Positions 8,585 to 63,098 of a DNA stretch of 64,000 nt are shown piece by piece. Made by a program: the position numbers and the translations under genes. Source of the stretch: Blautia sp. (GTDB lineage: Bacteria > Bacillota > Clostridia > Lachnospirales > Lachnospiraceae); contig JALEHU010000020.1 in assembly GCA_022770365.1 (NCBI GenBank), forward strand, positions 1 through 64,000, given 5' to 3'. Within the stretch, counting starts at the first letter, position 1. Every line of letters begins with the position of its first letter. Below the pieces are notes generated by a model that was given only the letters and a program-made list of their open reading frames with translations, was not told where the DNA came from and searched no databases.

Positions 8585-9170
8585 TTCGTCTTATCCCTTC
8601 TTCAATCTGTTCATGGGTTCTGATAAGATCGCCGTTATTTTCGATGACATAGTCAGCATGTGCACGGAAAAACTCCTCCGATGCCTGATTGTGAATGATT
8701 TTTTCCGCCCTGGCTCTTGTATAGCCCCGGCTTGCCATCAGCCTCTGAATACGGATTTCCTGATCTGTATGGATATACCAGATTTCATCGCAAAATACCT
8801 CATAATGATCCTCCAGAAGAAGTGCCGCCTCCACGACAGCAAGCTGCCTGCCGCAGCTTTTTTCTTCCTCAAGACGCCTGCGGATATATTCCTTCACTGC
8901 CGGATGGATAATTCCGTTCAGTGCAGCAAGCATCTCCCCATTACTAAATACTACATCGGAAACCCTCTTCCGGTCAATGGTTTTATCACTTTTTATTACG
9001 TCTTTTCCAAATAATTCGATAATTCTGTCATAACAGGATCCGTCCGGTTCCATAACCAGATGGCCGATTTTATCCGCCTCAATTACGCAGGCACCCAGCC
9101 GGGACTGCATATAACTGAGGACTGTGCTCTTACCGGCACCTACGCCGCCGGTGATTCCGATTGTTTTCAT
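8571..9170 (-). CDS. coaE: Dephospho-CoA kinase
   Basis: The last enzyme of coenzyme A synthesis, which phosphorylates the 3'-hydroxyl of dephospho-CoA with ATP. The product has 199 residues, the usual length, with P-loop GGVGAGKST at residues 8-16 and the LID-type block QRLMASRGYTRARAEKI. It lies 22 nt after polA, as in many Firmicutes, and overlaps the next gene by 14 nt. The other CoA genes of this window (coaBC, panT, coaX) are some 37 kb away. Confidence 0.95.
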   Translation of the reverse strand: MKTIGITGGVGAGKSTVLSYMQSRLGACVIEADKIGHLVMEPDGSCYDRIIELFGKDVIKSDKTIDRKRVSDVVFSNGEMLAALNGIIHPAVKEYIRRRLEEEKSCGRQLAVVEAALLLEDHYEVFCDEIWYIHTDQEIRIQRLMASRGYTRARAEKIIHNQASEEFFRAHADYVIENNGDLIRTHEQIEEGIRRNETL

Positions 9171-9192
9171 TTGTCAGATTTCCATTCCATGA

Positions 9193-11832: not shown

Positions 11833-11857
11833 TTTTTCCTCCTGGATTTTTCAGGTT

Positions 11858-12205
11858 TTATATAAATTGTTTTATCTGCGTTATAATAAAGACAAAAAAG
11901 AAAGTTACCACACCGATCAGTATCACAAATAGAATTGCTGAAAGGATGTTGGTCACCTTTTTTTTGTATATGTACCGGCGCGTCTTCCTGATGTCCTGTT
12001 CAAGAAGATGTTTGAAATCAAGCATGGCGTCTTCATCCTCGTCATCAAGCTGAAGCATTGCCTCATGCACGATAAAATAGGTTTCCAGTTCTTCGTAACA
12101 GGAGCTGCATGATTCAATATGCTCCAGAAACTCTTCCAATTCTTCAAGCGATAATGTGTGACTGATATAACGCGTTACCATTCCTTCTGCAGCACGACAG
12201 TCCAT
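11858..12205 (-). CDS. zf-HC2 anti-sigma-like membrane protein
   Basis: 115 residues. The N-terminus has Cys3 and a later H-x3-C-x2-C (HIESCSSC, residues 29-36), the zinc-binding pattern of zf-HC2 anti-sigma factors. An acidic linker (LDDEDEDAM) follows, and one transmembrane helix lies near the C-terminus. No sigma factor gene is adjacent; instead it is the first gene before polA (25 nt gap) under the promoter at 12244-12272. It may bind a sigma factor encoded elsewhere; this is inference from the fold. Confidence 0.75.
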   Translation of the reverse strand: MDCRAAEGMVTRYISHTLSLEELEEFLEHIESCSSCYEELETYFIVHEAMLQLDDEDEDAMLDFKHLLEQDIRKTRRYIYKKKVTNILSAILFVILIGVVTFFFVFIITQIKQFI

Positions 12206-12243
12206 CTCCTGCCACCTTCCTTCCTGATCAGGTCTTCCTCCTG

Positions 12244-12272
12244 ATTATAACGGAAGAAAGGACAAAAAACAA
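12244..12272 (-). promoter_or_regulatory. Promoter of the zf-HC2-polA-coaE unit
   Basis: Minus-strand -35 TTGTTT (12267-12272), 17-nt spacer, -10 TATAAT (12244-12249), about 39 nt upstream of the first start codon. Confidence 0.68.
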
Positions 12273-12279
12273 GGGGCGC

Positions 12280-12326
12280 AAAAAAGGTGATTCCGGACCT
12301 CTTCCTGTCCGGTGATCACCTTTTTT
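12280..12326 (-). terminator. Terminator after ftsH
   Basis: Long stem AAAAAAGGTGAT..CCGGAC / GTCCGG..ATCACCTTTTTT with a small internal bulge, 20 nt downstream of the ftsH stop. Runs of A and T at both ends make it usable from either side. Confidence 0.82.
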
Positions 12327-12345
12327 AATGAAATCATATGTGTTT

Positions 12346-14196
12346 TTAGTTCTGCTGGAGTTCCGGCATTGGTGCCTCCAGGATTTTCATAAATTCTTCT
12401 CCTGTGATAGTCTCATGTTCATAAAGATATTTTGCCAGCTCATGAAGCTTTCCAATGTTGTCCTGAAGAATCTTCAGGGCTTTCTGGTGCTGTCCGGATA
12501 CCAGATCCACTACCTTCTTATCAAGCACGGTCTGGGTCTCAAAGGAGCATGCAAGACTGGAATCACCGCCAAGATACGGATTTGTGACATTTTCCATGGC
12601 AACCATATCAAACTCATCGCTCATACCATATCTGGTGATCATAGCTCTGGCTATCCTGGTAGCCTGTTCAATATCATTGGACGCACCTGTAGTGATCGTA
12701 TGGAAAATCAGTTCTTCAGCAGCACGGCCGCCGGTAAATGTGGCAATCTTATTCTCCAGTTCTTCCTTCGACATCAGGAAATGTTCCTTTTCATCCACCT
12801 GCATCGTATATCCGAGAGCGCCGGAAGTACGGGGGATAATCGTGATCTTGTGCACCGGTGCGGAATCGGTCTGTTTGGCTGCAACAAGTGCATGACCGAT
12901 TTCATGATAAGCAACGATCAGTTTTTCCTTGTTTGAAAGGACACGATTCTTCTTCTGGTATCCGGCAATGACTACTTCGATACTCTCTTCAAAATCTGCC
13001 TGAGTTGCAAACTTCCTGCCGTCACGGACTGCGCGAAGAGCAGCTTCATTTACAATATTGGCAAGTTCTGCACCGGAAGCTCCTGCAGCAGCCTTTGCGA
13101 TCTCGTCAAAGCGGACTGTATCAGCAATCTTGATCTTCTTTGCATGGACTTTCAGGATTTCCTCACGTCCCTGCAGATCAGGAAGTTCCACCGGTATTCT
13201 TCTGTCAAAACGTCCCGGACGAAGCAGTGCCGGATCCAGAGAATCCGGACGGTTGGTAGCTGCAAGGATAACGACACCCTTGGAACCGTCAAAACCATCC
13301 ATTTCTGTCAGAAGCTGGTTCAAGGTCTGCTCACGTTCATCATTTCCGCTGAAACCTCCTCCGTCACGCTTCTTACCGATGGTATCAATCTCATCAATAA
13401 ATACGATGCAGGGTGCCTTTTCATTAGCCTGTTTGAACAGGTCACGCACTTTGGCAGCGCCCATACCTACGAACATTTCCACAAATTCAGAACCTGAAAT
13501 GGAAAAGAACGGAACTTCCGCTTCACCGGCAACTGCTTTTGCAAGAAGGGTTTTGCCGGTTCCGGGAGGGCCTACGAGCAGGGCGCCTTTCGGCATCGAA
13601 GCACCGATCTCCGCATATTTATGAGGATTATGAAGGTAATCTACTATTTCTGTCAGCAATTCCTTTGCCTCATCTTCACCGGCTACATCCGCAAACTTAA
13701 TTCCGCTTGTGGACTTGACATATACTTTGGCATTGCTCTTGCCGAAGGACATCATGCCTCCCGGGCCATCGCCCATAGAGCTCATCATTTTCTTGCTCAG
13801 CCAGCGGCCAAGAAGAATAAAGATCGCGATCGGAATCACATAACTGAGAATAATGCTTAAAAACAAAGATTGTCTTGCCGGCTCTGCTTCCTGCATATTT
13901 ACTCCGGCCTGTCTCAGACGCTCCACAAGATTGGGATCATCCATGGCAACGGTCTTGCATTCCACGTCTCTGCCGTCTTTCCTTGCCACATAATAAATGT
14001 AATCCCCGTCTACGGTTACATCCGTCACATTTCCTCTGTCCACATTATTCAGGAAAGTACTGTAATCTGTTGTGATGATACTGCCCTCCTGAATTGTCGG
14101 AACAACCAGGAAATTCAGCAGAAAGATTACAACGATCGCTATAATGTAGTATACATATAACGGTTTTTTTTCTGGTTTTTTGTCTCCTAGATTCAT
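12346..14196 (-). CDS. ftsH: ATP-dependent zinc metalloprotease FtsH
   Basis: Membrane-anchored AAA+ protease that degrades misfolded membrane and short-lived regulatory proteins. The 616-residue product has a transmembrane helix at 14-32, an extracytoplasmic domain, a second helix near 112-130, Walker A GPPGTGKT at 209-216, Walker B CIVFIDE, the arginine-finger region RPGRFDRR and the zinc site HEIGH at 431-435. The start at 14196 is chosen because GGAGGACACT precedes it; an upstream in-frame start at 14292 has none. The 229 nt between it and tRNA-Leu are AT-rich and hold the tRNA promoter; I cannot point to a clear ftsH promoter. Confidence 0.96.
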   Translation of the reverse strand: MNLGDKKPEKKPLYVYYIIAIVVIFLLNFLVVPTIQEGSIITTDYSTFLNNVDRGNVTDVTVDGDYIYYVARKDGRDVECKTVAMDDPNLVERLRQAGVNMQEAEPARQSLFLSIILSYVIPIAIFILLGRWLSKKMMSSMGDGPGGMMSFGKSNAKVYVKSTSGIKFADVAGEDEAKELLTEIVDYLHNPHKYAEIGASMPKGALLVGPPGTGKTLLAKAVAGEAEVPFFSISGSEFVEMFVGMGAAKVRDLFKQANEKAPCIVFIDEIDTIGKKRDGGGFSGNDEREQTLNQLLTEMDGFDGSKGVVILAATNRPDSLDPALLRPGRFDRRIPVELPDLQGREEILKVHAKKIKIADTVRFDEIAKAAAGASGAELANIVNEAALRAVRDGRKFATQADFEESIEVVIAGYQKKNRVLSNKEKLIVAYHEIGHALVAAKQTDSAPVHKITIIPRTSGALGYTMQVDEKEHFLMSKEELENKIATFTGGRAAEELIFHTITTGASNDIEQATRIARAMITRYGMSDEFDMVAMENVTNPYLGGDSSLACSFETQTVLDKKVVDLVSGQHQKALKILQDNIGKLHELAKYLYEHETITGEEFMKILEAPMPELQQN

Positions 14197-52237: not shown

Positions 52238-52297
52238 ATTCTTATTGATTTGAGAGAATTTCTGGTTTCAATACACCTTCAGGAGGAACATCATATT

Positions 52298-52864
52298 ATG
52301 AAAAACTTCAGGATCACAGAATGGTGCTCACGTTTCATACAAGAGCAGGTAAACGAAGGGGACATCTGTATCGATGCCACCATGGGAAACGGAAATGATA
52401 CATTGCTGCTGTGCAGTCTCTGCGGTGAGACAGGAACCGTACTGGCTTTTGATATCCAGGATCTGGCGCTGGAGCATACAAAAAAACTTCTGGACAGCCA
52501 TCACGCACTGCAAAACTACCGGCTGATTCTGGATTCCCACACAAACATGCGGCATTATGCCAGTGAGGAAACCGTAAGCTGTATTGTCTTTAACCTTGGT
52601 TATCTTCCGGGCGGTGACCATGCGCTGGCCACCAGAAGTGAAACAAGCATACAGGCTCTGGAAGAATCCCTCGTTCTTCTGAAAAAGGGAGGTATGATAT
52701 CTCTTTGTATTTACAGCGGCGGAGATTCCGGCTTTGAAGAGCGTGATGCAGTACTGAGCTGGCTTTCCTCTCTGGACTCCCGGAAATATCTTGTACTGAA
52801 AACCGAATACTATAATCGTCCCAATAACCCGCCAATCCCTGTCATAATCTTGAAACTTAACTAA
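52298..52864 (+). CDS. mnmM: tRNA mnm5s2U methyltransferase (YtqB/MnmM family)
   Basis: 188 residues; class I SAM methyltransferase with motif I DATMGNGNDTLLL and motif IV region VFNLGYLPGGDHAL, which matches Bacillus YtqB, shown to methylate aminomethyl-thiouridine at the tRNA wobble position. The start at 52298 has CAGGAGGAA upstream; an in-frame start at 52250 is less likely. Single-gene unit. The C-terminal NRPNNPPIPVIILK fits the family. Confidence 0.87.
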   Translation: MKNFRITEWCSRFIQEQVNEGDICIDATMGNGNDTLLLCSLCGETGTVLAFDIQDLALEHTKKLLDSHHALQNYRLILDSHTNMRHYASEETVSCIVFNLGYLPGGDHALATRSETSIQALEESLVLLKKGGMISLCIYSGGDSGFEERDAVLSWLSSLDSRKYLVLKTEYYNRPNNPPIPVIILKLN

Positions 52865-52942: not shown

Positions 52943-53785
52943 TTATTCCACCCACTCCAGGGTGATTCTGCCAAGTCTTCCGCTTCGGAAATCATCGAAC
53001 AGGATTCCGGCTGTCTTGCCATAGTCCAGTTCTTCTCCTTTTTTCAGGCAGCCGCGGGCACGGGCAATGGCTTCCATAACTTCCAGAGAAGTTCCCTCCT
53101 CCGGTATTCCATAACGCTTTTCCAGGACACCCTGATACTTTATGCGAAGATAATCAATAAGGCTCAGAGACAGTTCTTCCATATTCAGAACATCATCTTT
53201 AATCGAACCGATATAAGCAAGGCGGATTCCCACCTCCTGATCCTCAAACTTCGGCCAGAGAATACCCGGTGTATCCAGAAGTTCCACACCTTTATTCAGG
53301 CGGATCCACTGCTTTCCTTTTGTCACTCCGGGCTTGTTTCCGGTCTTTGCACAGGCTTTACCGGCAAAAGTATTGATGAAAGTGGATTTCCCAACATTCG
53401 GGATTCCAACTACCATAGCACGGATCGGACGATTTTTGATTCCTCTTCTCCGGTCTCTCTCAATCTTTTCTTTGCAGGCTTCCTGGATAACATTCTGGAT
53501 CATTTTCATTCCGGAACCGGAACGGGAATCTACCTTCACCACAAAGTATCCTTTTTTTTGAAAATATTCTTTCCATGCTTCGTTCTGCCGTTCATCAGCC
53601 AGATCAGCCTTGTTCAGCAGAATCAGTCTTGATTTGTTTTTGCCCAGCTCATCAATATCAGGATTGCGGCTGGAAAGAGGCACGCGGGCATCCACAAGCT
53701 CGATGATCAGATCTATCAGCTTGATGTCTTCCTGCATCTGTCTCCTTGCTTTGGTCATATGACCGGGATACCATTGTACATTCAT
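52943..53785 (-). CDS. rbgA: Ribosome biogenesis GTPase A (YlqF)
   Basis: 280-residue circularly permuted GTPase that matures the 50S subunit. G4 (LLNKADLAD) comes before G1 (GIPNVGKSTFIN) and G3 (LLDTPGILWP), the permuted order. The N-terminal WYPGHMTKARRQM is diagnostic. The C-terminal helical domain is present. It follows lepB by 15 nt; the rplS-lepB-rbgA order is conserved in Firmicutes. Confidence 0.96.
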   Translation of the reverse strand: MNVQWYPGHMTKARRQMQEDIKLIDLIIELVDARVPLSSRNPDIDELGKNKSRLILLNKADLADERQNEAWKEYFQKKGYFVVKVDSRSGSGMKMIQNVIQEACKEKIERDRRRGIKNRPIRAMVVGIPNVGKSTFINTFAGKACAKTGNKPGVTKGKQWIRLNKGVELLDTPGILWPKFEDQEVGIRLAYIGSIKDDVLNMEELSLSLIDYLRIKYQGVLEKRYGIPEEGTSLEVMEAIARARGCLKKGEELDYGKTAGILFDDFRSGRLGRITLEWVE

Positions 53786-53800
53786 AAGATTATTCTCCTG

Positions 53801-54394
53801 CTAGTTTTCCAGAAAACCGAGTTTTTTCACCGGATAACAGGTGAACCAGAGTTTTCCGGAAATATATTTTTTCCTGACAATACCGATATCACCATATCGG
53901 CTGTCTTCACTGTTGTTCCGGTTATCTCCCAGAACAAAGTATTCTCCCGCTTCCAGTGTAATGGGACTGGCTGCCAGTCCGGCATTGCTGATTGTCGGAA
54001 AATCTCTGCCTTCTTTATAAGTTTCCCCATTAATCAGGATGCGCCCGTCCACGATCTGGATGGTTTCTCCGGGAAGACCGATCACTCGTCGGATATGCAG
54101 CGCTGCCTCGTCACTTGCATTGGTACGGAATACGATAATATCTCCTCTCTGCGGAGAGGATACACGATAAATCACACGATTGATAAAAAAACGATCCCCA
54201 ACGGATAATGTGGGCTCCATGGAACTTTCCTGCATGGTAACCGACTGAAACATGGCAATCGCCACAAGAGCAGCAAATGCCAGCGTAACAGCAATTTCAA
54301 AAATCAGACTCACTGCATTCCTCAGTTTACCGTTTTCCAGTTTCTCACGGGCATCTTTTACTTTTTGGTTTTCTTTCCATTTTCTTAAATCCAT
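53801..54394 (-). CDS. lepB: Signal peptidase I, Arg at the catalytic Lys position
   Basis: 197 residues; one N-terminal membrane helix (about 28-50), then the S26 peptidase body. Box B is intact with Ser58 in ESSMEPTL, and box C (SPQRGDIIVFR) is clear. Box D normally reads Y-x-KRVIG with Lys as general base; here it reads HIRRVIGLPGE, with Arg102 at that place (codons CGA CGA). Box E (LGDNRNNSEDSR) is normal. It removes signal peptides at the outer membrane face if active. Lies between rplS and rbgA as usual. Confidence 0.9.
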   Translation of the reverse strand: MDLRKWKENQKVKDAREKLENGKLRNAVSLIFEIAVTLAFAALVAIAMFQSVTMQESSMEPTLSVGDRFFINRVIYRVSSPQRGDIIVFRTNASDEAALHIRRVIGLPGETIQIVDGRILINGETYKEGRDFPTISNAGLAASPITLEAGEYFVLGDNRNNSEDSRYGDIGIVRKKYISGKLWFTCYPVKKLGFLEN

Positions 54395-54411
54395 ATACAG
54401 TTCTCCATAAG

Positions 54412-54447
54412 GAAAAAGAGGGACAATAGCGTATGTTATTGTCCCTT
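54412..54447 (-). terminator. Terminator between rplS and lepB
   Basis: Minus-strand stem GGGACAATA/TATTGTCCC (8-nt loop), then TCTTTTT. It probably lowers read-through from rplS into lepB-rbgA. Confidence 0.82.
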
Positions 54448-54471
54448 CTCTTAATCACTGTGAAATTTTCA

Positions 54472-54819
54472 TTATCTAACGCGCTCTTTAACCTTTGCAG
54501 ATTTACCTACGCGGTCTCTTAAGTAGTTCAGTTTTGCACGGCGAACTTTACCATGACGGACAACTTCTACTTTTACTACATGCGGAGAATGCATCGGCCA
54601 TGTTTTCTCAACGCCAACGCCATTGGAGCTCTTTCTTACTGTGAAAGTTTCTCTGTTGCTTCCGCCCTGTTTCTTCAAAACAGTTCCTTCAAAAATCTGA
54701 ACACGTTCACGGTTTCCTTCTTTGATCAGTGCGTGTACTCTTACAGTATCACCAACGTTGAACTGCGGTACTTCTGCTTTTAACTGAGCAGCTTCGATGT
54801 TTTTGATAATTTCGTTCAT
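54472..54819 (-). CDS. rplS: 50S ribosomal protein L19
   Basis: 115 residues, normal length. [29 protein letters not shown] and the C-terminal [20 protein letters not shown] are standard L19. It sits at the 30S-50S interface. An AGGAGAG site precedes the ATG, and a strong promoter lies about 80-108 nt upstream. Confidence 0.98.
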
Positions 54820-54898
54820 TTTATTCTCTCCTATTCTATTTGGATGTTCTTAATACATGATTTGTAACAGAGGACCATCTTTTTTTACAACACAAGTG

Positions 54899-54927
54899 AT
54901 TATACAATAGAACGCTCTCTATTGCAA
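54899..54927 (-). promoter_or_regulatory. Promoter of rplS
   Basis: Minus-strand TTGCAA (54922-54927), 17 nt, TATAAT (54899-54904). Confidence 0.78.
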
Positions 54928-55077
54928 GATTTTTTTACAGGAAGTTTCATTAATTTTATATACATGCTGCACTTCTGCCGAAATGTCTTGCCCAATTATT
55001 CCAGACATGTTATACTTCTTTCTGCTATTTAAAGATACCGGCATATCGTCCGCAAGCCCGGAAGCATCAATAACATT

Positions 55078-55105
55078 TTGATACATCTTTTGCCCTCGTT
55101 ATACT
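55078..55105 (+). promoter_or_regulatory. Possible promoter of the second MATE gene
   Basis: TTGATA (55078-55083), 16 nt, TATACT (55100-55105). An alternative is TTGCCC (54988-54993), 17 nt, TATACT (55011-55016). I cannot choose between them. Confidence 0.5.
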
Positions 55106-55130
55106 GGTCGATCACAACAGGAGGAATACT

Positions 55131-56501
55131 ATGCAGCAATCTAGAGATGAAAAGCTCGGAACTATGCCGATCCCAAAACTGATGCTGAGTCTTGCCATTC
55201 CATCAGTTATTGCCCAGCTGATTAACGTACTTTACAACATTGTGGATCGTATGTACATCGGACACATCGCAGACATAGGACATATTGCCTTGACAGGTGT
55301 CGGACTTACCTTTCCCGTTATAATGATCATTTCCGCATTCAGCGCTTTTATCGGAGCCGGCGGGGCACCTCTGGCTGCCATCGCCCTTGGCAAGAAGGAC
55401 AAAGAAAGAGCCGAAAAAATCCTTGGAAACGGAACCACAGTGCTTTTCTGCTTTTCCGTTATCCTGACAATCTTTTTTCTTATCTTTAAACGGCCTCTCC
55501 TTTATATGTTCGGGGCCAGCGATGAAACCATTGTCTATGCGATAAATTATATATCCATTTATTTGCTTGGCACTATTTTTGTTCAGTTTGCCCTTGGACT
55601 GAATATGTTTATTTCCTCTCAGGGACAGGCCAGAACAGCCATGCTTTCTGTTCTGATCGGTGCTGTGATCAATATTGTCCTGGATCCGGTATTTATTTTC
55701 ATACTTCATATGGGTGTACAGGGTGCAGCACTGGCAACAATCATATCACAGGCATGCAGCGCTGTATGGGTCGTAAATTTCCTTTGCTCCTCCAGATCCG
55801 CAATCCGTATACGCCGGAAACATCTCCTACCGGAATGGAATATAATTAAGAGTGTCATGTCACTGGGTATCTCACCTTTTATCATGCAGGCTACGGAAAG
55901 TGCTATTACCATCGTACTGAACAGCGGGCTGCAGACTTACGGCGGTGACCTTTATGTTGGCTCTATGACAATCCTTCAGAGTGTAATGCAGCTTGTCTGT
56001 ACTCCTATTAATGGCTTTACTCAGGGAATACAACCAATCATCAGCTATAATTTCGGAGCCCGTAAGTATGATCGTGTCAAAAAAACCTATCGGCTGACCA
56101 TTGCCATCACATTCACAGTTGCTACCATTTTCTGCCTGTGTACTGTTAATTGTCCTACACTCTTTGCAAGAATCTTTACTACTAACAACGAACTGATTTC
56201 ACTGGTTGGTAAAGTGATGCCTGTTTTCATGGCAGGTGTCTGGATTTTTGGTATTCAAATGGGATGCCAGACCACTTTTATGGGTCTTGGACAGGCTAAG
56301 ATTTCACTGTTCATTGCTCTTCTCAGAAAAGTTTTTCTTCTCATTCCTCTGGCTATTATTCTTCCTAATTTTTTCGGAGTTATGGGAATCTACTATGCAG
56401 AGCCGATTTCTGATATCACTGCTGCCACTACTGCCGGAATCATTTTCCTGACTGTACGCAAAAAAATTGTTTCTGATGAAGCATTGAAAAAAATAAAATA
56501 G
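55131..56501 (+). CDS. MATE family efflux transporter
   Basis: 456 residues, about twelve membrane helices in two halves: MLSLAIPSVIAQLINVLYNI begins the first and VMSLGISPFIMQATESAITI the second, with GFTQGIQPIISYNFGA as a family block. It resembles the MepA branch of multidrug MATE pumps. An AGGAGG site precedes the ATG. Single-gene unit with its own terminator. Substrate unknown. Confidence 0.9.
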   Translation: MQQSRDEKLGTMPIPKLMLSLAIPSVIAQLINVLYNIVDRMYIGHIADIGHIALTGVGLTFPVIMIISAFSAFIGAGGAPLAAIALGKKDKERAEKILGNGTTVLFCFSVILTIFFLIFKRPLLYMFGASDETIVYAINYISIYLLGTIFVQFALGLNMFISSQGQARTAMLSVLIGAVINIVLDPVFIFILHMGVQGAALATIISQACSAVWVVNFLCSSRSAIRIRRKHLLPEWNIIKSVMSLGISPFIMQATESAITIVLNSGLQTYGGDLYVGSMTILQSVMQLVCTPINGFTQGIQPIISYNFGARKYDRVKKTYRLTIAITFTVATIFCLCTVNCPTLFARIFTTNNELISLVGKVMPVFMAGVWIFGIQMGCQTTFMGLGQAKISLFIALLRKVFLLIPLAIILPNFFGVMGIYYAEPISDITAATTAGIIFLTVRKKIVSDEALKKIK

Positions 56502-56508
56502 ACCCGGT

Positions 56509-56562
56509 AAAAACAGCCTGCCTCAGGACGAATGTTTCCTGCAGACAGGCTGTTTGTCTTTT
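56509..56562 (+). terminator. Terminator after the second MATE gene
   Basis: Stem AAACAGCCTG/CAGGCTGTTT with an intervening loop of about 25 nt, followed by GTCTTTT. Confidence 0.75.
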
Positions 56563-56629
56563 CACATTGTATATTTATGCCTTTATTTCAGAAATTCTAC
56601 GTATTGAATCACTGACGATGACTTTATGA

Positions 56630-57265
56630 CTATGATTTCAGTTTTTCGATTATGCTCACAGCGTCATCCTCTTCAATCCAGATGTGATCCTCCAGATTCA
56701 TGGATACAATCTGCTGTTTCTGCCGGAACAGTTCCAGACATCCATCAAGAACCTCCTGCGAGACAGATGCCTTCACAACCATCTCACCTACCTGAATCTC
56801 ACCCTTGATATTATAGTAAGGCATTTTCAGGTATCGAAGCTCGCTCAGGGAAAGCCCGCTTTTGTCAGGGTTGATCCTGCTTTCAGCACGCTGATAAATC
56901 TCATCTCCGTCAAAAATCTGCTGGGCTGTAAAATAAATACCGGGATTATCCATATATAACGACGATTCCTTCAAAGTTTCCCCCTGCAGGCAATCCAGAA
57001 TACTGACCAGAAGCGACTCTGGTGTGGGACTTGGTTCCGGTTCGGATATGTCTGCAGTCTCCGTATCAATTGCTGCTTCCTGTTCCTTTAATTTGTCAAT
57101 AGTCTCTCTGGTTTTTTCCTGTTCCTGGGCAAACTGTTCATCCAGTGCACGCGTTTCACGATTCAGACGAAGTGTACCCACCAGAAGATAAATAATACTG
57201 CCTGCCAGAACCAGACAGATCACAGACGTAAAGATCATGACAGTTTTGCTGTTACGTTTGTTCAT
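56630..57265 (-). CDS. Unrecognised membrane-anchored coiled-coil protein, third gene of the motor operon
   Basis: 211 residues; I do not recognise the family. A transmembrane helix covers about 8-32, a charged coiled coil about 33-65, then an acidic/proline linker (ISEPEPSPTPES), and a C-terminal globular part (about 86-211) with GEIQVGEMVVKASVSQEVL and a Trp/acid-rich end (EDHIWIEEDDAV). It lies 17 nt after the OmpA/MotB-like gene, with GGGAGATGA as ribosome binding site, so it belongs to that operon. With the anchor N-in, the globular part would face outside the membrane, where it could contact the stator plug or peptidoglycan. This is inference. Confidence 0.75.
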   Translation of the reverse strand: MNKRNSKTVMIFTSVICLVLAGSIIYLLVGTLRLNRETRALDEQFAQEQEKTRETIDKLKEQEAAIDTETADISEPEPSPTPESLLVSILDCLQGETLKESSLYMDNPGIYFTAQQIFDGDEIYQRAESRINPDKSGLSLSELRYLKMPYYNIKGEIQVGEMVVKASVSQEVLDGCLELFRQKQQIVSMNLEDHIWIEEDDAVSIIEKLKS

Positions 57266-57282
57266 GGTGTATCATCTCCCAA

Positions 57283-58284
57283 TCAGTCCTGTGATTTTTC
57301 CTGATTGCCTGCATTATCTGCACTGTCTGTATTCTCTGTGATTTCTGCATCTGTCATAATCTTATTCAGTTCATCGATCATCTCATCGTCTTTCAAACGG
57401 AATTTTACTTCTACACGGCGCGATGCATCCTTATCTACATTTCCCTCCGCATCCAGAATGGGGTTGGCCATGGAATGTCCATTCACAGTAAGATAATTCT
57501 CCAGACTTGAAATCTGATCTGCATCCAGGAACTGATCCTGAATGTCAAGCAGATACTGTGCTACAGCCAGAGAACGCCGCTGTGATAATTCCAGATTATA
57601 ACTGTAATCACCATCTGTATCCGTATATCCGTCAATAATGATTTCCGCCAGATAAGGCAGATGCTGATCTTCCAGAAGAACTTTACAGTAAATCGGAAGG
57701 ACTGCTTCCAGCGCCGCTTTACCTTCTTCCGTAAGCTCCGCCTCATCATACGCAAACATGACATTGGCATCCAGTGTCAAAGCACCTGTCTGCGAATCAA
57801 TATCCACATTGACATTGTTTTTGGAGAATTCCTTTTTCAGGGATTCTACTACCTCTGCCTTGACACCAATAATCTGGTCGATCTGCGCCTGCTGATCTGC
57901 AAGAAGTGCTGTTTTTTCGTCAAGGTCGGACTGCTGCTGTGTCAAAGTCGCTTCCTGTTCTTTGAGCTTTGCTGCCAGCTCAGCAAGAAGCTGCTTCTGC
58001 TCTTCCAGCTTTTCATCCTGGGTTTTCAGCTGCTCATCCTGATCTTTTAACTGACCTTCTTTTTCTTCAAGAGCGGACTGCTGTGCCAGAATTTCCAGTG
58101 TATATTCTTCCTGCATGGCAATCTTTTCATCCCGTTCTTTGATACTCTCGTCATAGCTTTTCTGGGCCTGAAAAAGTGTAACGCACATGATCAGCACAAA
58201 AAGAAGCATGACACCCGCCATCATATCCGAATAGGAACGCCAGATATTAAATCCATTGTTCTCTGATTTTTTTCTTTTACGCAT
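57283..58284 (-). CDS. MotB/ZorB-like OmpA-domain stator protein
   Basis: 333 residues. Residues 1-17 are basic and cytoplasmic. One transmembrane helix (about 18-39) carries an early Asp20 in SYSDMMAGVMLL, the place of the proton-binding Asp of MotB. A long coiled coil (about 40-150; heptads such as LKDQDEQLKTQDEKLEEQ) follows. The C-terminal OmpA peptidoglycan-binding domain (about 175-300) has GYTDTDGDYSYNLELSQRR. It is 11 nt after the MotA-like gene. It should pair with it as an ion-driven motor anchored to the cell wall; not a flagellar MotB, as no flagellar genes are present. Confidence 0.85.
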   Translation of the reverse strand: MRKRKKSENNGFNIWRSYSDMMAGVMLLFVLIMCVTLFQAQKSYDESIKERDEKIAMQEEYTLEILAQQSALEEKEGQLKDQDEQLKTQDEKLEEQKQLLAELAAKLKEQEATLTQQQSDLDEKTALLADQQAQIDQIIGVKAEVVESLKKEFSKNNVNVDIDSQTGALTLDANVMFAYDEAELTEEGKAALEAVLPIYCKVLLEDQHLPYLAEIIIDGYTDTDGDYSYNLELSQRRSLAVAQYLLDIQDQFLDADQISSLENYLTVNGHSMANPILDAEGNVDKDASRRVEVKFRLKDDEMIDELNKIMTDAEITENTDSADNAGNQEKSQD

Positions 58285-58295
58285 GTGTCTCTCCT

Positions 58296-59939
58296 TTATT
58301 TAAATAAGCCGAATTTTCCTTTCTGTGCAGTTCTGGAAAGATTTCTGATACTCTGGTTCATTTCATCAAGTGCAGCCTGCTGGCGTTCATTCTGTTCTTC
58401 CAGCATAGTCTGCATTTTATTCAGTGCTTCTTTACTCAGATTCTGTGTATTGCCGCTGCCGCTCATCAGATAGATATCTCTGTTGTTCTTTGCAACTGTA
58501 ATATCACTCAGAAGCGCGCGGACCTGTTCCATAGTCTGATAAGACTTCTTCTGATATACCATGTATTCCTGCATTTTGGCTTCAAATTCTTCAACAACGC
58601 GCTTATTTGCTTTTATCACATCACTGCCGGACTGATTAAAAGCAGAAATACGTTCCGTACTCTGTGTAGCTGCCTCCACATATTTCTGCATTGTCTGATT
58701 GCAGGCTACCCAGAATTTGGCAGAGGATCTTTCGGCATCCTTCAGATATTCAGCAATATGCTGATAATCTGCCTGCTGCATCTTCTGTATCTCTCTGTTT
58801 TCCTGAAGAATACGATTGGCTGTATCCATGTATTTTCCCTGACTGCGGCTCATCTGATCCATAAGATCTTTCATCATCTTCTCCTGTTTCGCATAAGAAT
58901 CAGTAAGCTGTCTGGTCATGGTCTGATATAATTCGCTTGTATAAGCGGCATTTTCATTCTGGACACTCTTCAGCCGGGCAAGAGATTCATTAAAGTCCTG
59001 GAATTCCATATCAAAGGATGAATGCATTTCCTTCAGGAAGGTATCCAGAATCTCTTTCACCGCATCCTGCTGACATCTCAGTACAGAAGTAGAAAGCATG
59101 TCCAGAGACTCGTTCATTTTAACAAATGTAGGTGTGATCACTTTCTCAAAACTGTCAGCCATCTGTACAGAAAACTGTTCCGCCATCTGTTCCATTGCTG
59201 CCGTCTGATTCTTCTGGCTGGCAACCAGAAGATTGCGTGATTCGTTCTCTGCAGTAGGCATTACACAAGAGTGAAATTTCTCAAGAAATGCCTGCAGACT
59301 CTCTGTCATAGAAGAATATTCACTCTTCATGCCAAATGTGTAAACAATAGAAAGTGCAATTCCATAAATAGAGGTGAGAAATGCAACCTTAATACCATCA
59401 ACCAGACTGGCAACAGAAGTAGTCATCGTTCCGTAATCATTTGGCTGAAAATTCTTCAGACCCCATACAAGACCCACAAATGTTCCCAGGATACCAAGAC
59501 TTGTAAAGATATCCGGAATCATTTCCAGAATACGCTTGTGAATGTGATTGTCCAGTTCTTCTTCATTCAAATAGTCTTCAATTTCACCGATACCTTCTTC
59601 ACTTCTTGTGACGCTTGCTGTAAAATTCTCCATTTTACGGTCAAGATATGTATGATTAAAAATATCATTCAGATGAACAAGTTTATCAGCAGCAACCTTG
59701 CCATTGGTCTTGAAAATACCGGACAATTCTTCAGTTGCGCTGCGCAGAGCTTCAGCTATGGCACTCATCCGGAACATTCCGCCGATCATACCGCAAAGAT
59801 ACATGATGACCATAATTCCCAGGAAAACAAAGTTATAAATCATAACGCTTGTAGCTCCCTGGCCTACATAAATTGTCATACCTGCCGCTCCTGCAACAAC
59901 TGCAAGAAATAAAATGATGTTAATTATTTTTTTTCCCAT
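58296..59939 (-). CDS. MotA/TolQ/ExbB-family stator protein with long helical tail (ZorA-like)
   Basis: 547 residues. Membrane helices at about 5-25, 33-56, 141-162 and 183-204; the last two form the MotA_ExbB channel unit (PDIFTSLGILGTFVGLVWGL and DGIKVAFLTSIYGIALSIVY). A cytoplasmic tail of about 340 residues, almost all predicted helix, follows (for example MEQMAEQFSVQMADSFEKV). Flagellar MotA and ExbB lack such a tail, while ZorA of the Zorya antiphage system has one. The start at 59939 has GAGGAGG 6 nt upstream; an ATG at 59954 lies in that site. First gene of a three-gene operon. Confidence 0.85.
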   Translation of the reverse strand: MGKKIINIILFLAVVAGAAGMTIYVGQGATSVMIYNFVFLGIMVIMYLCGMIGGMFRMSAIAEALRSATEELSGIFKTNGKVAADKLVHLNDIFNHTYLDRKMENFTASVTRSEEGIGEIEDYLNEEELDNHIHKRILEMIPDIFTSLGILGTFVGLVWGLKNFQPNDYGTMTTSVASLVDGIKVAFLTSIYGIALSIVYTFGMKSEYSSMTESLQAFLEKFHSCVMPTAENESRNLLVASQKNQTAAMEQMAEQFSVQMADSFEKVITPTFVKMNESLDMLSTSVLRCQQDAVKEILDTFLKEMHSSFDMEFQDFNESLARLKSVQNENAAYTSELYQTMTRQLTDSYAKQEKMMKDLMDQMSRSQGKYMDTANRILQENREIQKMQQADYQHIAEYLKDAERSSAKFWVACNQTMQKYVEAATQSTERISAFNQSGSDVIKANKRVVEEFEAKMQEYMVYQKKSYQTMEQVRALLSDITVAKNNRDIYLMSGSGNTQNLSKEALNKMQTMLEEQNERQQAALDEMNQSIRNLSRTAQKGKFGLFK

Positions 59940-59991
59940 AATCAGCCTCCTCATCGCTGGTGTTTCTGCATTTGTTTCTGCTTTTCATTTA

Positions 59992-60027
59992 TGTTCAGCA
60001 TTTCATGGATATAATGACTGCTGAACA
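59992..60027 (-). promoter_or_regulatory. Inverted repeat in the motor-operon leader
   Basis: Perfect 9-bp arms TGTTCAGCA (59992-60000) and TGCTGAACA (60019-60027) with an 18-nt spacer, between promoter and start codon. It could be an operator or an mRNA hairpin. Confidence 0.5.
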
Positions 60028-60040
60028 GCTGCTTTTTATT

Positions 60041-60069
60041 ATGATATCATATCACTTTTTGAGGAACAA
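60041..60069 (-). promoter_or_regulatory. Probable promoter of the motor operon
   Basis: Minus-strand TTGTTC (60064-60069), 17 nt, TATCAT (60041-60046). The remaining stretch to 60167 holds only a small GTCTGC/GCAGAC hairpin at about 60144-60158. Confidence 0.55.
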
Positions 60070-60167
60070 GATGGTAATTTCCAATTTTCCATTCCGGAAT
60101 ACCGTAACAGGAATCAGATCAGCCTGACTTTTATAAAATTGTAAGTCTGCATAGCAGACATTTCCGT

Positions 60168-60791
60168 TTAGCATCCTGTATGGAAAATCTTATCCTGTGC
60201 AAGGAGACAGGTCCCGTCCTCATCCACTCTCACAATATTTACTGCGCAGTTAGGCGGAACACAGCCATTCCAGAATGGAGTTCCCTCCGGATAAACATTC
60301 CTCAGAAGTGCCCTTACAGCACATCCATGGGAAGCAATCAGAACTGTTTTATCTGCAAGTGACGGATCCATCATTTTTTCCAGCCAGAATTCCCTGGTTC
60401 TCGCACAGATGTCCCTGATATTCTCTCCCTGATCCGGGCGTTCAAAATGTTCAGGATCATTAAAAAAAATCTCCATCTGTTCATTTACGACTTTTCCTTT
60501 TTCATCCTTGAAACGGGTACCTTCCAGAATACCGAAATTTATTTCCCTGATGCGAGGATCTTCAATGATCGGAACCGAAGAGCATCTGCTTCCGAGTACC
60601 AGCTCTGCAGTACGCCGGGCACGGACCAGCGGACTTGTAAAGCAGATATCAAAAGGAATCTCCTTCAATGCTTCTCCCGTCTCCCGCGCAAGCCGGATCC
60701 CTTCTTCTGCCAGAGGAATATCTGCAATTCCCTGGACTTTTTTCAGCGCGTTCCATTCTGTAACGCCGTGTCTTATAATATAAATCAGCAT
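60168..60791 (-). CDS. Histidine phosphatase family protein
   Basis: 207 residues of the phosphoglycerate-mutase-like superfamily. The phosphohistidine motif is IIRHGVTEWN at residues 5-14, followed by TSPLVRARRTAELV, EINFGILEG and the second His in IASHGCAVRALL. Members include GpmB, broad phosphatases and alpha-ribazole phosphatase CobC. The corrinoid operon is 18 kb away, so CobC is possible but not supported by context. It starts 3 nt after the YihY gene. Confidence 0.88.
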   Translation of the reverse strand: MLIYIIRHGVTEWNALKKVQGIADIPLAEEGIRLARETGEALKEIPFDICFTSPLVRARRTAELVLGSRCSSVPIIEDPRIREINFGILEGTRFKDEKGKVVNEQMEIFFNDPEHFERPDQGENIRDICARTREFWLEKMMDPSLADKTVLIASHGCAVRALLRNVYPEGTPFWNGCVPPNCAVNIVRVDEDGTCLLAQDKIFHTGC

Positions 60792-60794
60792 TTG

Positions 60795-61685
60795 TTACTC
60801 ACCTTCTTTATTTTTTTCACGGGTAAGAAGATCCTGAACAGATTTCTGTGCCTGACGGAACTGCTTCTCAAAATACGCATTGATTTCAGCACCGTAAAGA
60901 AGCATCGTCATACAGATATACATCCACATCATGACCATAATAACCGCAGTCAAACTTCCGTACATATTGCTGAATCCCGGAAAAAACGAAAAATACAGCG
61001 AGAAAAAATACGAAAACAGTGACCATGCAACCGCTGTGATCAAAGCTCCGGGAACCTGGCTCTTAAAAGTTGCTTTTCGGTTTGGCATCACTTTGTAAAG
61101 AATAAGGAAAATAAAAAAAAGCACCAAAAATACAATCAGAGTTCTGGCGCTGATAATCCTTGCTATGATTCTCCCCAGAAACGGAAAATATTTTGCCAGT
61201 TCAAGCTGGATCCGGTTGCCAAGAACCAGTAAAAACAGACTTACAATCAATGCTATCGCAAAAAGCAGTGTATAAAAAGCAGCCTGTATTCGCCTTATCA
61301 GCCAGTTTCGTGTCTCATGAACATGATAGATGCTGTTCAGTCCGGTGATCAAAGCCATCAATGCCTTTCCGGCGGACCAGATTGCCACAGCCACTGAGGT
61401 AATAGAATAGACCGTTGTATTCCTTCCATATACTTCTGCCACAATCCCCATGATAAACTCCTGAAGATTCTGTGGTATCACACTGATAATTGCCTGACGC
61501 ATCATCCCATAAGTTAAAGGTGTATATTTTATCATTGCAGTTAAGAACATTATAAATGGGATAAATGACATGATCATAAAAAAAGCGGCCTGCGCAGCAA
61601 ATGCCGTTACATGATCCCCGCTTGTCCGTTCCACAAATCCTTTTAACAAAGAGATCAAAGACCTGTTCATTTTATTTCTCATCAT
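60795..61685 (-). CDS. YihY/UPF0761 family membrane protein
   Basis: 296 residues with about six membrane helices; AAQAAFFMIMSFIPFIMFL, YHVHETRNWLIRR and the late PGALITAVAWSLFSYFFSLYFSFF are family marks. Older databases call it 'ribonuclease BN', which is wrong for this family; its role is unknown. AAAGG precedes the ATG. The C-terminal tail is charged and cytoplasmic. Co-transcribed with the histidine phosphatase gene. Confidence 0.87.
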   Translation of the reverse strand: MMRNKMNRSLISLLKGFVERTSGDHVTAFAAQAAFFMIMSFIPFIMFLTAMIKYTPLTYGMMRQAIISVIPQNLQEFIMGIVAEVYGRNTTVYSITSVAVAIWSAGKALMALITGLNSIYHVHETRNWLIRRIQAAFYTLLFAIALIVSLFLLVLGNRIQLELAKYFPFLGRIIARIISARTLIVFLVLFFIFLILYKVMPNRKATFKSQVPGALITAVAWSLFSYFFSLYFSFFPGFSNMYGSLTAVIMVMMWMYICMTMLLYGAEINAYFEKQFRQAQKSVQDLLTREKNKEGE

Positions 61686-61715
61686 TCTGACCTTTCTTTT
61701 CCTGAATGTCTTTTT

Positions 61716-61744
61716 ATTTTACCATGAAACGCTATTTGTGACAA
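61716..61744 (-). promoter_or_regulatory. Promoter of the YihY-phosphatase pair
   Basis: Minus-strand TTGTCA (61739-61744), 17 nt, TAAAAT (61716-61721). Confidence 0.65.
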
Positions 61745-61760
61745 GAAGGAAACAACTATA

Positions 61761-63098
61761 CTAATTGTCGGTGCTGTTTTTTGATAAAATCTCAACATTC
61801 CTAAAAAAATAATCAAGTATTTCCTTATAATCATATCCCTGTTCTGCCATCTCACTGGCAGCGGTCTGACTCATGCCGACTCCGTGTCCGTACCCCTTGC
61901 CATAAATCAGAATACTTTCACCCGGACTGGCTTTCATGGTAAAATAAGCGCTTGGAAGAAGTGTTCCGCCCTGTACGACAGTGCCGTCTTTTTCCGTAAT
62001 CGTACAGCCTGAAGGCGAGAGAAATTCCCGTACGGAATATTCTTCTGTCAGATCAAAGGAGCCGGTATCTGCGGCAACATGAAGGCCTGTAACAGCTCCG
62101 CTCTGATTCTTCCTTGTAATTTCCACTGTTTTTAAAGCACAGCGGACAGATTCTGTTGTTTCTTCATCATTATAAGTGTCCTTTATATAATCCGTACACC
62201 TGTCCTCAAGTGTTCTCCATGGAATCGATACAGTCCATAAGCTCCACGGCTGTTCCTGATCAAATTCACACGGCACTGAATTCAGATACGAAGCTGCCTG
62301 TGCAGCGCCCCAGATTTCGTCAGTACTGGTAACACCCGCAGAAGTCGAAAAATAATATGCCTGTATCAGTTCTCCGTTCTGACATAATACTTGTCCTCGC
62401 GTTTCTCGCACCGCATTTGTCGTACTGTCACATGGCGCAGTATTTCCGTAAACCTGGAAACGGACACTGTCATCCACATCTGCATTATATTTCTTTAGTG
62501 TTCCTTTTTCTATCTGATAATAAGCATAGGTTCTGGCACAAACAGCCTGGGCTTTGAGAGCTTCCATTTCATAAGAAGACGGCATTTCACTTGGAACCAC
62601 CGACTCAAGGTAAGTTTCCAGCGGCAGTTCATTAATCAGAAGAAGTCCCTGATCCGTATTTCGCACTTCCAGACATCCCCTGTAAGCCGGATTTCCCTGC
62701 TGACGTTCAATGGATGTTATGGTAATGCCGTTTTGCTGTTCCGGAAAGATCAGCATACCCCCTGAAAGTTCCGGACTGGCTGTTGTATATGTCACTTCCT
62801 CGCTGCCGCAGATAACTGATACCTTCTGATGATAATAGGACTGATACCCTGTATCCATCAGCAGCACGCGGATCAGTGAATCCGCGGAGTCTGCTATATC
62901 TGTACATGTTTCTTCTGCAAGAACCGCCACATTCTGAACTTCTTCTTTTTGATCCGCTTCCTCTGCATCATCAGTTATCAGATTCGTTTTTTCTTCACGG
63001 CCCATATTTATCTTTACAGCTTCCTCAAGCAGAGCCATCCATATCAGAAGTATCAGCAGCATAAGTTTTATACTATAAAAAAAACTGGTTCTCTTCAT
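61761..63098 (-). CDS. spoIID: SpoIID/LytB domain cell-wall hydrolase
   Basis: 445 residues with an N-terminal signal-anchor (about 8-24), an acidic linker, then the SpoIID domain. The catalytic Glu lies in ESVVPSEMPSSYEMEALKAQ, and the C-terminal GYGHGVGMSQTAASEMAEQG is diagnostic. SpoIID is a lytic transglycosylase acting on denuded glycan strands during engulfment; this protein is longer than typical SpoIID, so a vegetative paralogue is possible. No Shine-Dalgarno is visible before the ATG; instead the start codon sits in the stem of a terminator-like hairpin, and codons 6-8 are part of its U-tract. Confidence 0.82.
   Translation of the reverse strand: MKRTSFFYSIKLMLLILLIWMALLEEAVKINMGREEKTNLITDDAEEADQKEEVQNVAVLAEETCTDIADSADSLIRVLLMDTGYQSYYHQKVSVICGSEEVTYTTASPELSGGMLIFPEQQNGITITSIERQQGNPAYRGCLEVRNTDQGLLLINELPLETYLESVVPSEMPSSYEMEALKAQAVCARTYAYYQIEKGTLKKYNADVDDSVRFQVYGNTAPCDSTTNAVRETRGQVLCQNGELIQAYYFSTSAGVTSTDEIWGAAQAASYLNSVPCEFDQEQPWSLWTVSIPWRTLEDRCTDYIKDTYNDEETTESVRCALKTVEITRKNQSGAVTGLHVAADTGSFDLTEEYSVREFLSPSGCTITEKDGTVVQGGTLLPSAYFTMKASPGESILIYGKGYGHGVGMSQTAASEMAEQGYDYKEILDYFFRNVEILSKNSTDN

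Follow-up and report, generated by a model that had tools for sequence, protein, structure and literature searches.

Five-to-two (5:2) ion-driven motors have been treated, in the accessible parts of two accounts (PMC9389320, PMC12204202), as flagellar, gliding, Ton/Tol, or phage defense machines, and where such motors are nonflagellar and occur in single-membrane bacteria, the same parts regard them as untested or probably nonfunctional. ZorAB is treated as a defense motor in the portions available of PMC11890865, PMC8565338, and PMC12905483; the 5:2 assembly, the ion flow past an Asp, the wall anchoring, and the tail bundle discussed below are likewise drawn from what the available part of PMC11890865 says of ZorAB and MotAB. 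Here, we describe a ZorA-like and a ZorB-like gene, followed by a third gene that we call T3, in a 64,000-nucleotide stretch of Blautia sp. (GenBank assembly GCA_022770365.1, contig JALEHU010000020.1, positions 1 to 64,000); this whole stretch is referred to as the window. We lean toward reading the pair as a ZorAB-type 5:2 ion-driven motor that is a core housekeeping machine of its genus and not a Zorya defense system.

All three genes are on the minus strand, and their placement, with gaps of 11 nt between the ZorA-like and ZorB-like genes and 17 nt between the ZorB-like gene and T3, was confirmed from the minus-strand open reading frames (ORFs) as the first-pass annotation had given it. The ZorA-like gene (58296..59939) encodes 547 aa from the ATG at 59939; an alternative in-frame ATG at 59954 would give an ORF of 552 aa (58296-59954). 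Its product matches the MotA_ExbB family PF01618 at 33.7 bits (cut-off, 22.9), and its nearest solved relatives are the ZorA chains of PDB 8qyy (9e-14) and 8vvn (2e-13). A membrane part (residues 1 to ~235) leads into a helical cytoplasmic tail (~236 to 547) of about 310 residues, in which hydrophobicity has a period of ~3.6 (3 of 1,000 shuffles were equally strong). Among 50 genus sequences, a set that excludes ZorA-like proteins shorter than 500 aa and the paralogous pairs L154 to L156, conservation peaks at residues 141 to 160 (mean identity, 0.94) and 181 to 200 (0.90), in transmembrane segments 3 and 4 (TM3 and TM4); it is also high where the tail begins (261 to 280; 0.90) and in a distal patch (401 to 420; 0.85). 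This patch lies around W410 (KFWVACNQTMQKY), and its W-x-x-C-N motif is found in 50/55 genus ZorA-like sequences and also in L044, L045, L237, and L245, which belong to other genera. The ZorA-like gene was the one PF01618 gene found in the window's genome (3.0 Mb, 85% complete).

The ZorB-like gene (57283..58284) encodes a 333-aa protein that matches the OmpA family PF00691 at 47.3 bits (cut-off, 27.2); a MotB_plug match fell under its cut-off. The closest solved relative is ZorB of 8qyd (9e-19). The membrane Asp is D20, within WRSYSD; its aligned counterpart in that structure is the Asp of an E. coli-type ZorB. WxSYSD is present in 57/57 genus ZorB-like sequences. An OmpA-like wall-binding domain occupies residues ~158 to 297, with GYTD at 219, and its GYTDTDG aligns with GFTDTDG of the 8qyd protein. 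Between the membrane and this domain, an AlphaFold model predicts a single helix (residues 15 to 152) with moderate confidence (mean pLDDT, 70), and the heptad signal, taken by itself, was not significant (177 of 1,000 shuffles were equally strong).

The length of this axle sets the protein apart from true ZorB. The span from the Asp to GxTD is 199 residues in the window's protein, 185 to 227 across the genus (56 of the 57 sequences could be parsed), and 172 to 248 in 22 pairs of other genera at which the search found no clear Zorya effector, L247 having the span of 172; L050 and L253 have no such wall motif and hence no axle span. True ZorB spans are shorter: two Clostridia of other genera with complete Zorya systems have 126 and 124 residues, and the 8qyd protein has about 115. 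Judged by these spans, the axle is about 73 to 84 residues longer than that of true ZorB.

By gene content, the pair is not a Zorya system, because no zorC, zorD, or zorE gene adjoins it and its scores lie far under the curated cut-offs. The best NCBIfam score was 62.6 of the 250 bits set for ZorA (54.2 of 100 with another ZorA model) and 90.4 of 400 bits for ZorB. PADLOC, whose matches carry no cut-off in the scan used, recognized the ZorB-like protein (PDLC00609; E, 5e-65) and the ZorA-like protein (E, 5e-20). Among 10 neighbors in the window, PADLOC found no ZorC, ZorD, or ZorE, and no ZorF or ZorG, for which the scan had no positive control; one of the 10, a methyltransferase (52250-52864), matched mad2. 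Two loci of other Clostridia, found by the ZorA profile, served as positive controls and were read as ZorA-ZorB-ZorC-ZorD (L255; ZorC, 1e-14, and ZorD, E of 0) and ZorA-ZorB-ZorE (L256; ZorE, 4e-70). The ZorC, ZorD, and ZorE proteins of these controls matched nothing among all ORFs of 57 genus loci; against 30 other loci, the same queries returned L255 and L256 themselves and a weak ZorD match in L250 (195-aa ORF, 6e-6). At the level of whole genomes, the ZorE model gave one partial match among 64 genus genomes (G170) and none in the window's genome, and the ZorC family PF15611 matched 0/64, a count of little weight since it also had zero matches in the control genomes. The ZorD model matched 37/64 genus genomes, and because it also matched 9/14 control genomes, these matches are probably mostly generic SNF2 helicases, that in the window's genome included. 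The latter is an SNF2-helicase stretch outside the window (G000:C101:3444-4772), within a 1,467-aa open frame, that matches the middle of the ZorD model; it may still be an unlinked partner of the pair.

Much of what the first-pass annotation had said of the two proteins therefore holds. The MotA/ExbB-type channel with a long helical cytoplasmic tail is there, both proteins align with solved ZorA (8qyy, 8vvn) and ZorB (8qyd), and the absence of ZorC, ZorD, and ZorE beside the pair was recovered by a method validated on L255 and L256. For its MotB-type protein, the early membrane Asp and the wall domain stand, and the long coiled coil is to be read as a predicted helix; the profile comparison that it proposed gave matches in PADLOC and NCBIfam, the latter under curated cut-offs. 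As for its statement that no flagellar, Tol, or Ton genes are present, a second MotA_ExbB gene was not found in the 85%-complete genome, where no dedicated search for further flagellar, Tol, or Ton genes was made.

The pair is a nearly fixed core gene pair of the genus, by which we mean Blautia and its near kin. With one genome per species and the window's own genome counted, the ZorB-like gene is present in 57/64 genomes and in 32/34 good ones (completeness of at least 90% and contamination of at most 5%), and at all 51/51 genus loci with enough flank, a ZorA-like gene precedes it within 2.2 kb. The usual order at the locus, a housekeeping one, is pheS-pheT-PGM-zorA-zorB-rplS-lepB-ylqF. When all ORFs of the genus loci with enough flank were searched and named from Pfam families, pheT (36/44), pheS (35/41), and PGM (35/47) were found upstream, and rplS and lepB (32/44 each) and ylqF (31/42) downstream. 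The divergence of the pair follows that of core genes: in the 23/57 genomes having all genes, the Mantel correlation with PheT was 0.83 for ZorA and 0.81 for ZorB and that with YlqF was 0.74 for both, with 0/999 permutations as high in each case; PheT and YlqF correlate with each other at 0.92. The dN/dS of ZorA and ZorB was 0.03 to 0.07 in 16/16 pairs among the five species that carry T3, with dS close to saturation in all but one pair. In contrast to the pair, no third gene is constant; the gene next after ZorB is MetAP in 23/54 loci, ZIP in 14/54, and T3 in 5/55, and a constant third gene was rejected on these counts.

No plasmid match of at least 60% identity was found for ZorB (none at all) or for ZorA (37 records, all below 60%); among the plasmid matches listed for ZorA, 14/15 are annotated as ZorA, at 21% identity. 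In phages, ZorA gave two records, both below 60% identity, and the ZorB search covered plasmids, not phages. Separately, an unverified record from human feces labeled bacteriophage (L257, MT835828.1) has a 552-aa ZorA-like gene beside a 561-aa ZorB-like gene; it may be a bacterial contig, as its neighbors, judged by eye, do not look phage-like.

We imagine that the motor would work much as its relatives do. By homology to ZorAB and MotAB, five ZorA-like subunits would surround a ZorB-like dimer, and ion flow past Asp20 would turn the pentamer around the axle while the OmpA-like domains hold the wall. The long single-helix axle may let those domains span the membrane-wall zone of a single-membrane cell, and the helical tail of ~310 residues would project from the turning part into the cytoplasm, as it does in ZorA. 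The likely job, in our view, would be to monitor the condition of the wall or to act on it. This wall-related output is suggested by the ancestry of T3 and by the genes found beside the pair in its nearest relatives.

T3 (56630..57265, minus strand; 211 aa) consists of an N-terminal membrane anchor, a coiled region, a linker, and a domain at residues 88 to 200. The protein has no family above cut-off in Pfam, NCBIfam, or PADLOC and no PDB sequence match, and a fold search of the PDB with its model, most of whose domain is at pLDDT above 90, gave 584 weak matches, 0 of them at an E of 0.001 or less; its link to the M15 peptidases therefore comes from sequence. Matches to T3 occur in 42/150 genomes of the family and 20/64 of the genus, T3 itself counted. 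Away from the pair, they could be followed at 44 loci (29 of 42 family places, 13 having no locus, and 15/15 in the genus), and at 43 of these, the protein continues into the M15 zinc motif SxHxxGxAxD; the lone exception, L176, is a weak and probably spurious match and was excluded from the T3 tree. Peptidase_M15_4 (PF13539) was detected in 9/9 relatives scanned with Pfam. The anchor and domain 88 to 200 are like the N-terminal half of these anchored M15 D,D-carboxypeptidases (E down to 2e-29), whereas T3 ends before SxHxxGxAxD and the C-terminal HxE, so that the zinc-binding half is absent from 5/5 T3 proteins. When a full-length M15 homologue was compared with the PDB, its relatives there matched solely its C-terminal end, so that the T3 domain may belong to the catalytic fold or form a domain of its own; PF13539 has no match anywhere in the window's genome. 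Only 128 nt separate T3 from the convergent MATE gene, and the idea that a remnant of the catalytic half persists there was rejected. On sequence homology, then, T3 is an M15 D-Ala-D-Ala carboxypeptidase reduced to its N-terminal half, with the zinc half lost.

T3 is a lineage-specific add-on to the pair. In all five loci that have it, it starts 5 to 17 nt after ZorB, and the five proteins form one clade (UFboot, 90) next to Blautia enzymes, for which reason one capture and one loss would be the simplest history. We propose that the operon of this one clade of five species gained an anchored protein that, by its homology, would face outward, and that T3 most likely acts as a noncatalytic adaptor at the outer face of the motor. 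The first-pass annotation had described a three-gene system whose membrane-anchored third protein could not be assigned and should be conserved with the pair. The genes are real and adjacent, and the protein is anchored and without a match in Pfam, NCBIfam, PADLOC, or the PDB, but its relatives do assign it, and the neighborhood survey finds it in only 5/55 loci; the third gene is thus not conserved with the pair, an outcome that the annotation had itself named as refuting its reading. As a separate observation, T3-type M15 enzymes were found in 5/7 genomes without a ZorB match and 9/57 with one, kinship being uncontrolled in this comparison.

Outside the genus, wall-type neighbors are found at 5/8 of the loci nearest in the tree, in three genera. 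A CAP and choline-binding repeat protein is encoded 20 to 28 nt after ZorB in L045 and L237, which are of one genus; a transglutaminase and Fn3 protein lies 39 to 77 nt before ZorA in L046 and L047; and in L046 and L239, an NlpC/P60 and choline-binding protein is encoded close by. No such neighbor was seen at L044 (four neighbors scanned) or L251 (one scanned), and L245 had no neighbors in the scan. At more distant loci, the neighbors scanned are mostly metabolic. Apart from the search for ZorC, ZorD, and ZorE, the neighbors in other genera were scanned in part (sets of 20 and 10 proteins, and 3 with PADLOC). A constant wall-enzyme neighbor was rejected, as such genes are found solely in the nearest relatives.

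Other arrangements were seen along the way. In L050 (G129, same family), a MotA/ExbB channel gene (8625-10169) has an EAL-domain cytoplasmic tail (E, 2e-52) and is possibly a motor tied to cyclic-di-GMP turnover; the genes after it are one for a ZorB-like protein of 557 aa and a Wzz/AAA_31 gene. Two genomes of the genus (L155 in G209 and L156 in G180) have second ZorB-like genes with regulatory neighbors, a VWA and FHA protein after one and a protein-kinase-domain and Sel1-repeat protein after the other. In L048, a distant ZorA-like gene is preceded, 149 nt away, by a 940-aa SF1 helicase (10436-13258; AAA_11/AAA_12, with PADLOC MkoA/MkoC matches), which could be a defense-type association in that genus.

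Several observations weigh against a housekeeping motor. The ZorB-like protein reaches 217 bits with the PADLOC ZorB1 model, and the window's genome has an unlinked ZorD-model match (G000:C101; E, 1e-66; the helicase part, 495 to 949 of 1,171). Seven of the 64 species have no ZorB-like match, two of them represented by good genomes (G151 and G159), and thus the pair is dispensable somewhere; lepB and ylqF are present without ZorA or ZorB there in G159, G161, G151, and G210, the last two also showing rplS, and in G172, G174, and G200, no ylqF of the usual locus was found. Above the genus, the ZorA core profile (E of 1e-10 or less) matches 27/397 genomes of the family and 12/391 of the class, a patchiness such as accessory systems have; a single-sequence search found the ZorA-like gene in 11/150 family genomes, the window's genome being counted in each of these tallies. 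Wall-type neighbors are limited to five of the eight nearest loci, and most genus flanks are uninformative on the wall. Finally, T3 evolves fast: pair for pair, its dN exceeds that of ZorA and ZorB by a factor of about 4 to 17.

Of the alternatives offered at first pass, a motor that works without a nuclease or a housekeeping wall-associated motor of the Lachnospiraceae from which defense types derive, the second fits the genus survey best, but neither as a three-gene system nor as a family-wide one; the pair is near fixed only in this genus. The derivation of defense types is not shown, either. The ZorA tree has several deep groups, with L053 and L256 on very long branches, and its root was placed by hand on L255, so we have no reliable root and claim no order of origin.

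An antiphage motor would sense envelope disturbance like ZorAB and either call an unlinked effector or act alone by ion entry. We consider this unlikely, although the match to ZorA and ZorB extends over the whole architecture, and the cytoplasmic tail is kept, with a conserved patch that could dock an effector. Against it are reports, in the parts available, that deletion of any component abolished the protection given by Zorya I and II against the phages tested (PMC11890865) and that ZorAB by themselves are not sufficient (PMC8565338). An unlinked SNF2 helicase does exist in the window's genome and in 37/64 of the genus; beside the pair itself, none of the 10 neighbors scanned with PADLOC is a ZorC, ZorD, or ZorE, the one methyltransferase having matched mad2. 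The patchy distribution above the genus would suit a defense system, but within it, the pair is core, mostly syntenic, and vertically inherited, as opposed to the differential distribution across strains given for Zorya in the accessible part of PMC11890865, and neither the plasmid searches for both proteins nor the phage search for ZorA returned a match of at least 60% identity.

SiiAB serves a secreted adhesin, and one can envision a similar motor that drives an exported enzyme or a protein of the surface, with outer partners specific to each lineage (T3, the CAP/choline-binding protein, or the transglutaminase/Fn3 protein). Such a role would account for the wall and surface proteins that adjoin the pair in close relatives (L045, L237, L046, L047, and L239) and for a T3 that faces outward by homology. 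We nevertheless regard it as improbable, given that these neighbors are confined to few loci in three genera, with mostly metabolic genes scanned farther out, and that ordinary genes, MetAP or ZIP, commonly follow ZorB in the genus. A last alternative, in which T3 is a decaying, functionless peptidase drifting without its catalytic half, would explain the missing zinc-binding motifs, the high dN, and the few loci that carry it but is doubtful, as the frame is open (210 to 280 aa) in five species whose proteins are 38 to 77% identical with 47 invariant columns, the start keeps its short distance to ZorB in all five, dN/dS is below 1 in the 8/10 pairs for which a value was obtained (0.46 for the two closest species and 0.11 to 0.40 in the seven others, where dS is high), and most of the domain is modeled with high confidence.

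A histidine-phosphatase (PGM-type) gene, recognized by Pfam, lies upstream of the pair (60168..60791, minus strand), without pheT at the upstream position typical of the genus, and genes for a ylqF-type GTPase, lepB (signal peptidase), and rplS (L19) lie on the other side (52943..54819, minus strand). A probable intrinsic terminator 3′ of T3 (56509..56555, minus strand) was read by eye as AAACAGCCTG...CAGGCTGTTT plus a short T run; the hairpin is absent from the matches of a simple terminator scan, its loop exceeding the limit of that scan. An Rfam scan of positions 54000 to 62000 gave 0 matches at the gathering score, and promoter-like sites were about as frequent as in shuffled sequence (12 versus 8.9; standard deviation, 2.9).

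If the housekeeping motor is the correct reading, it would be a use of a ZorAB-type machine outside defense and a candidate for the role of ZorAB before or beside defense, and annotating such pairs as antiphage ZorAB from homology alone could mislead. More broadly, and tentatively, single-membrane gut bacteria might keep a nonflagellar, nondefense rotary motor whose extra-long, wall-spanning axle couples an ion gradient to the wall, with outer partners that differ between lineages, a dead carboxypeptidase in the present case. A literature search of partial coverage, most subscription papers lying outside it, listed no description of a Blautia pair of this kind. Motors of this type are known; a core use in a single-membrane genus, without adjoining effectors and with a long axle, appears to be undescribed.

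The pair can be set against three described kinds of motor. With the flagellar stators MotAB and MotPS, it shares a PF01618 core and an OmpA-type wall domain; unlike them, it has a tail of about 310 residues where MotA has a short cytoplasmic domain, its ZorA-like protein matches MotP/PomA models only weakly, and no further gene of the family was found in the genome. The generic ion transporter (GIT) motors, nonflagellar and 5:2, are described in the available part of PMC12505986 as encoded by A/B pairs whose A subunit is extended, as here, but with B subunits that have no OmpA-type domain, whereas the B subunit of the Blautia pair does have one; the same source considers Zorya a more distant relative of GIT. 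The closest likeness is to ZorA-ZorB of Zorya I and II (8qyd/8qyh/8qyk/8qyy, 8vvn, and 8vvi), with which the pair has in common the channel core with TM3 and TM4 segments (PDIFTSLGILGTFVGL and GIKVAFLTSIYG), the long helical tail of ZorA, the membrane Asp in WxSxxD, and the OmpA-like wall domain with GxTDTDG and ASRRVE. It differs from them in standing without adjoining zorC, zorD, or zorE genes, in its longer axle, and in being core and mostly syntenic in its genus.

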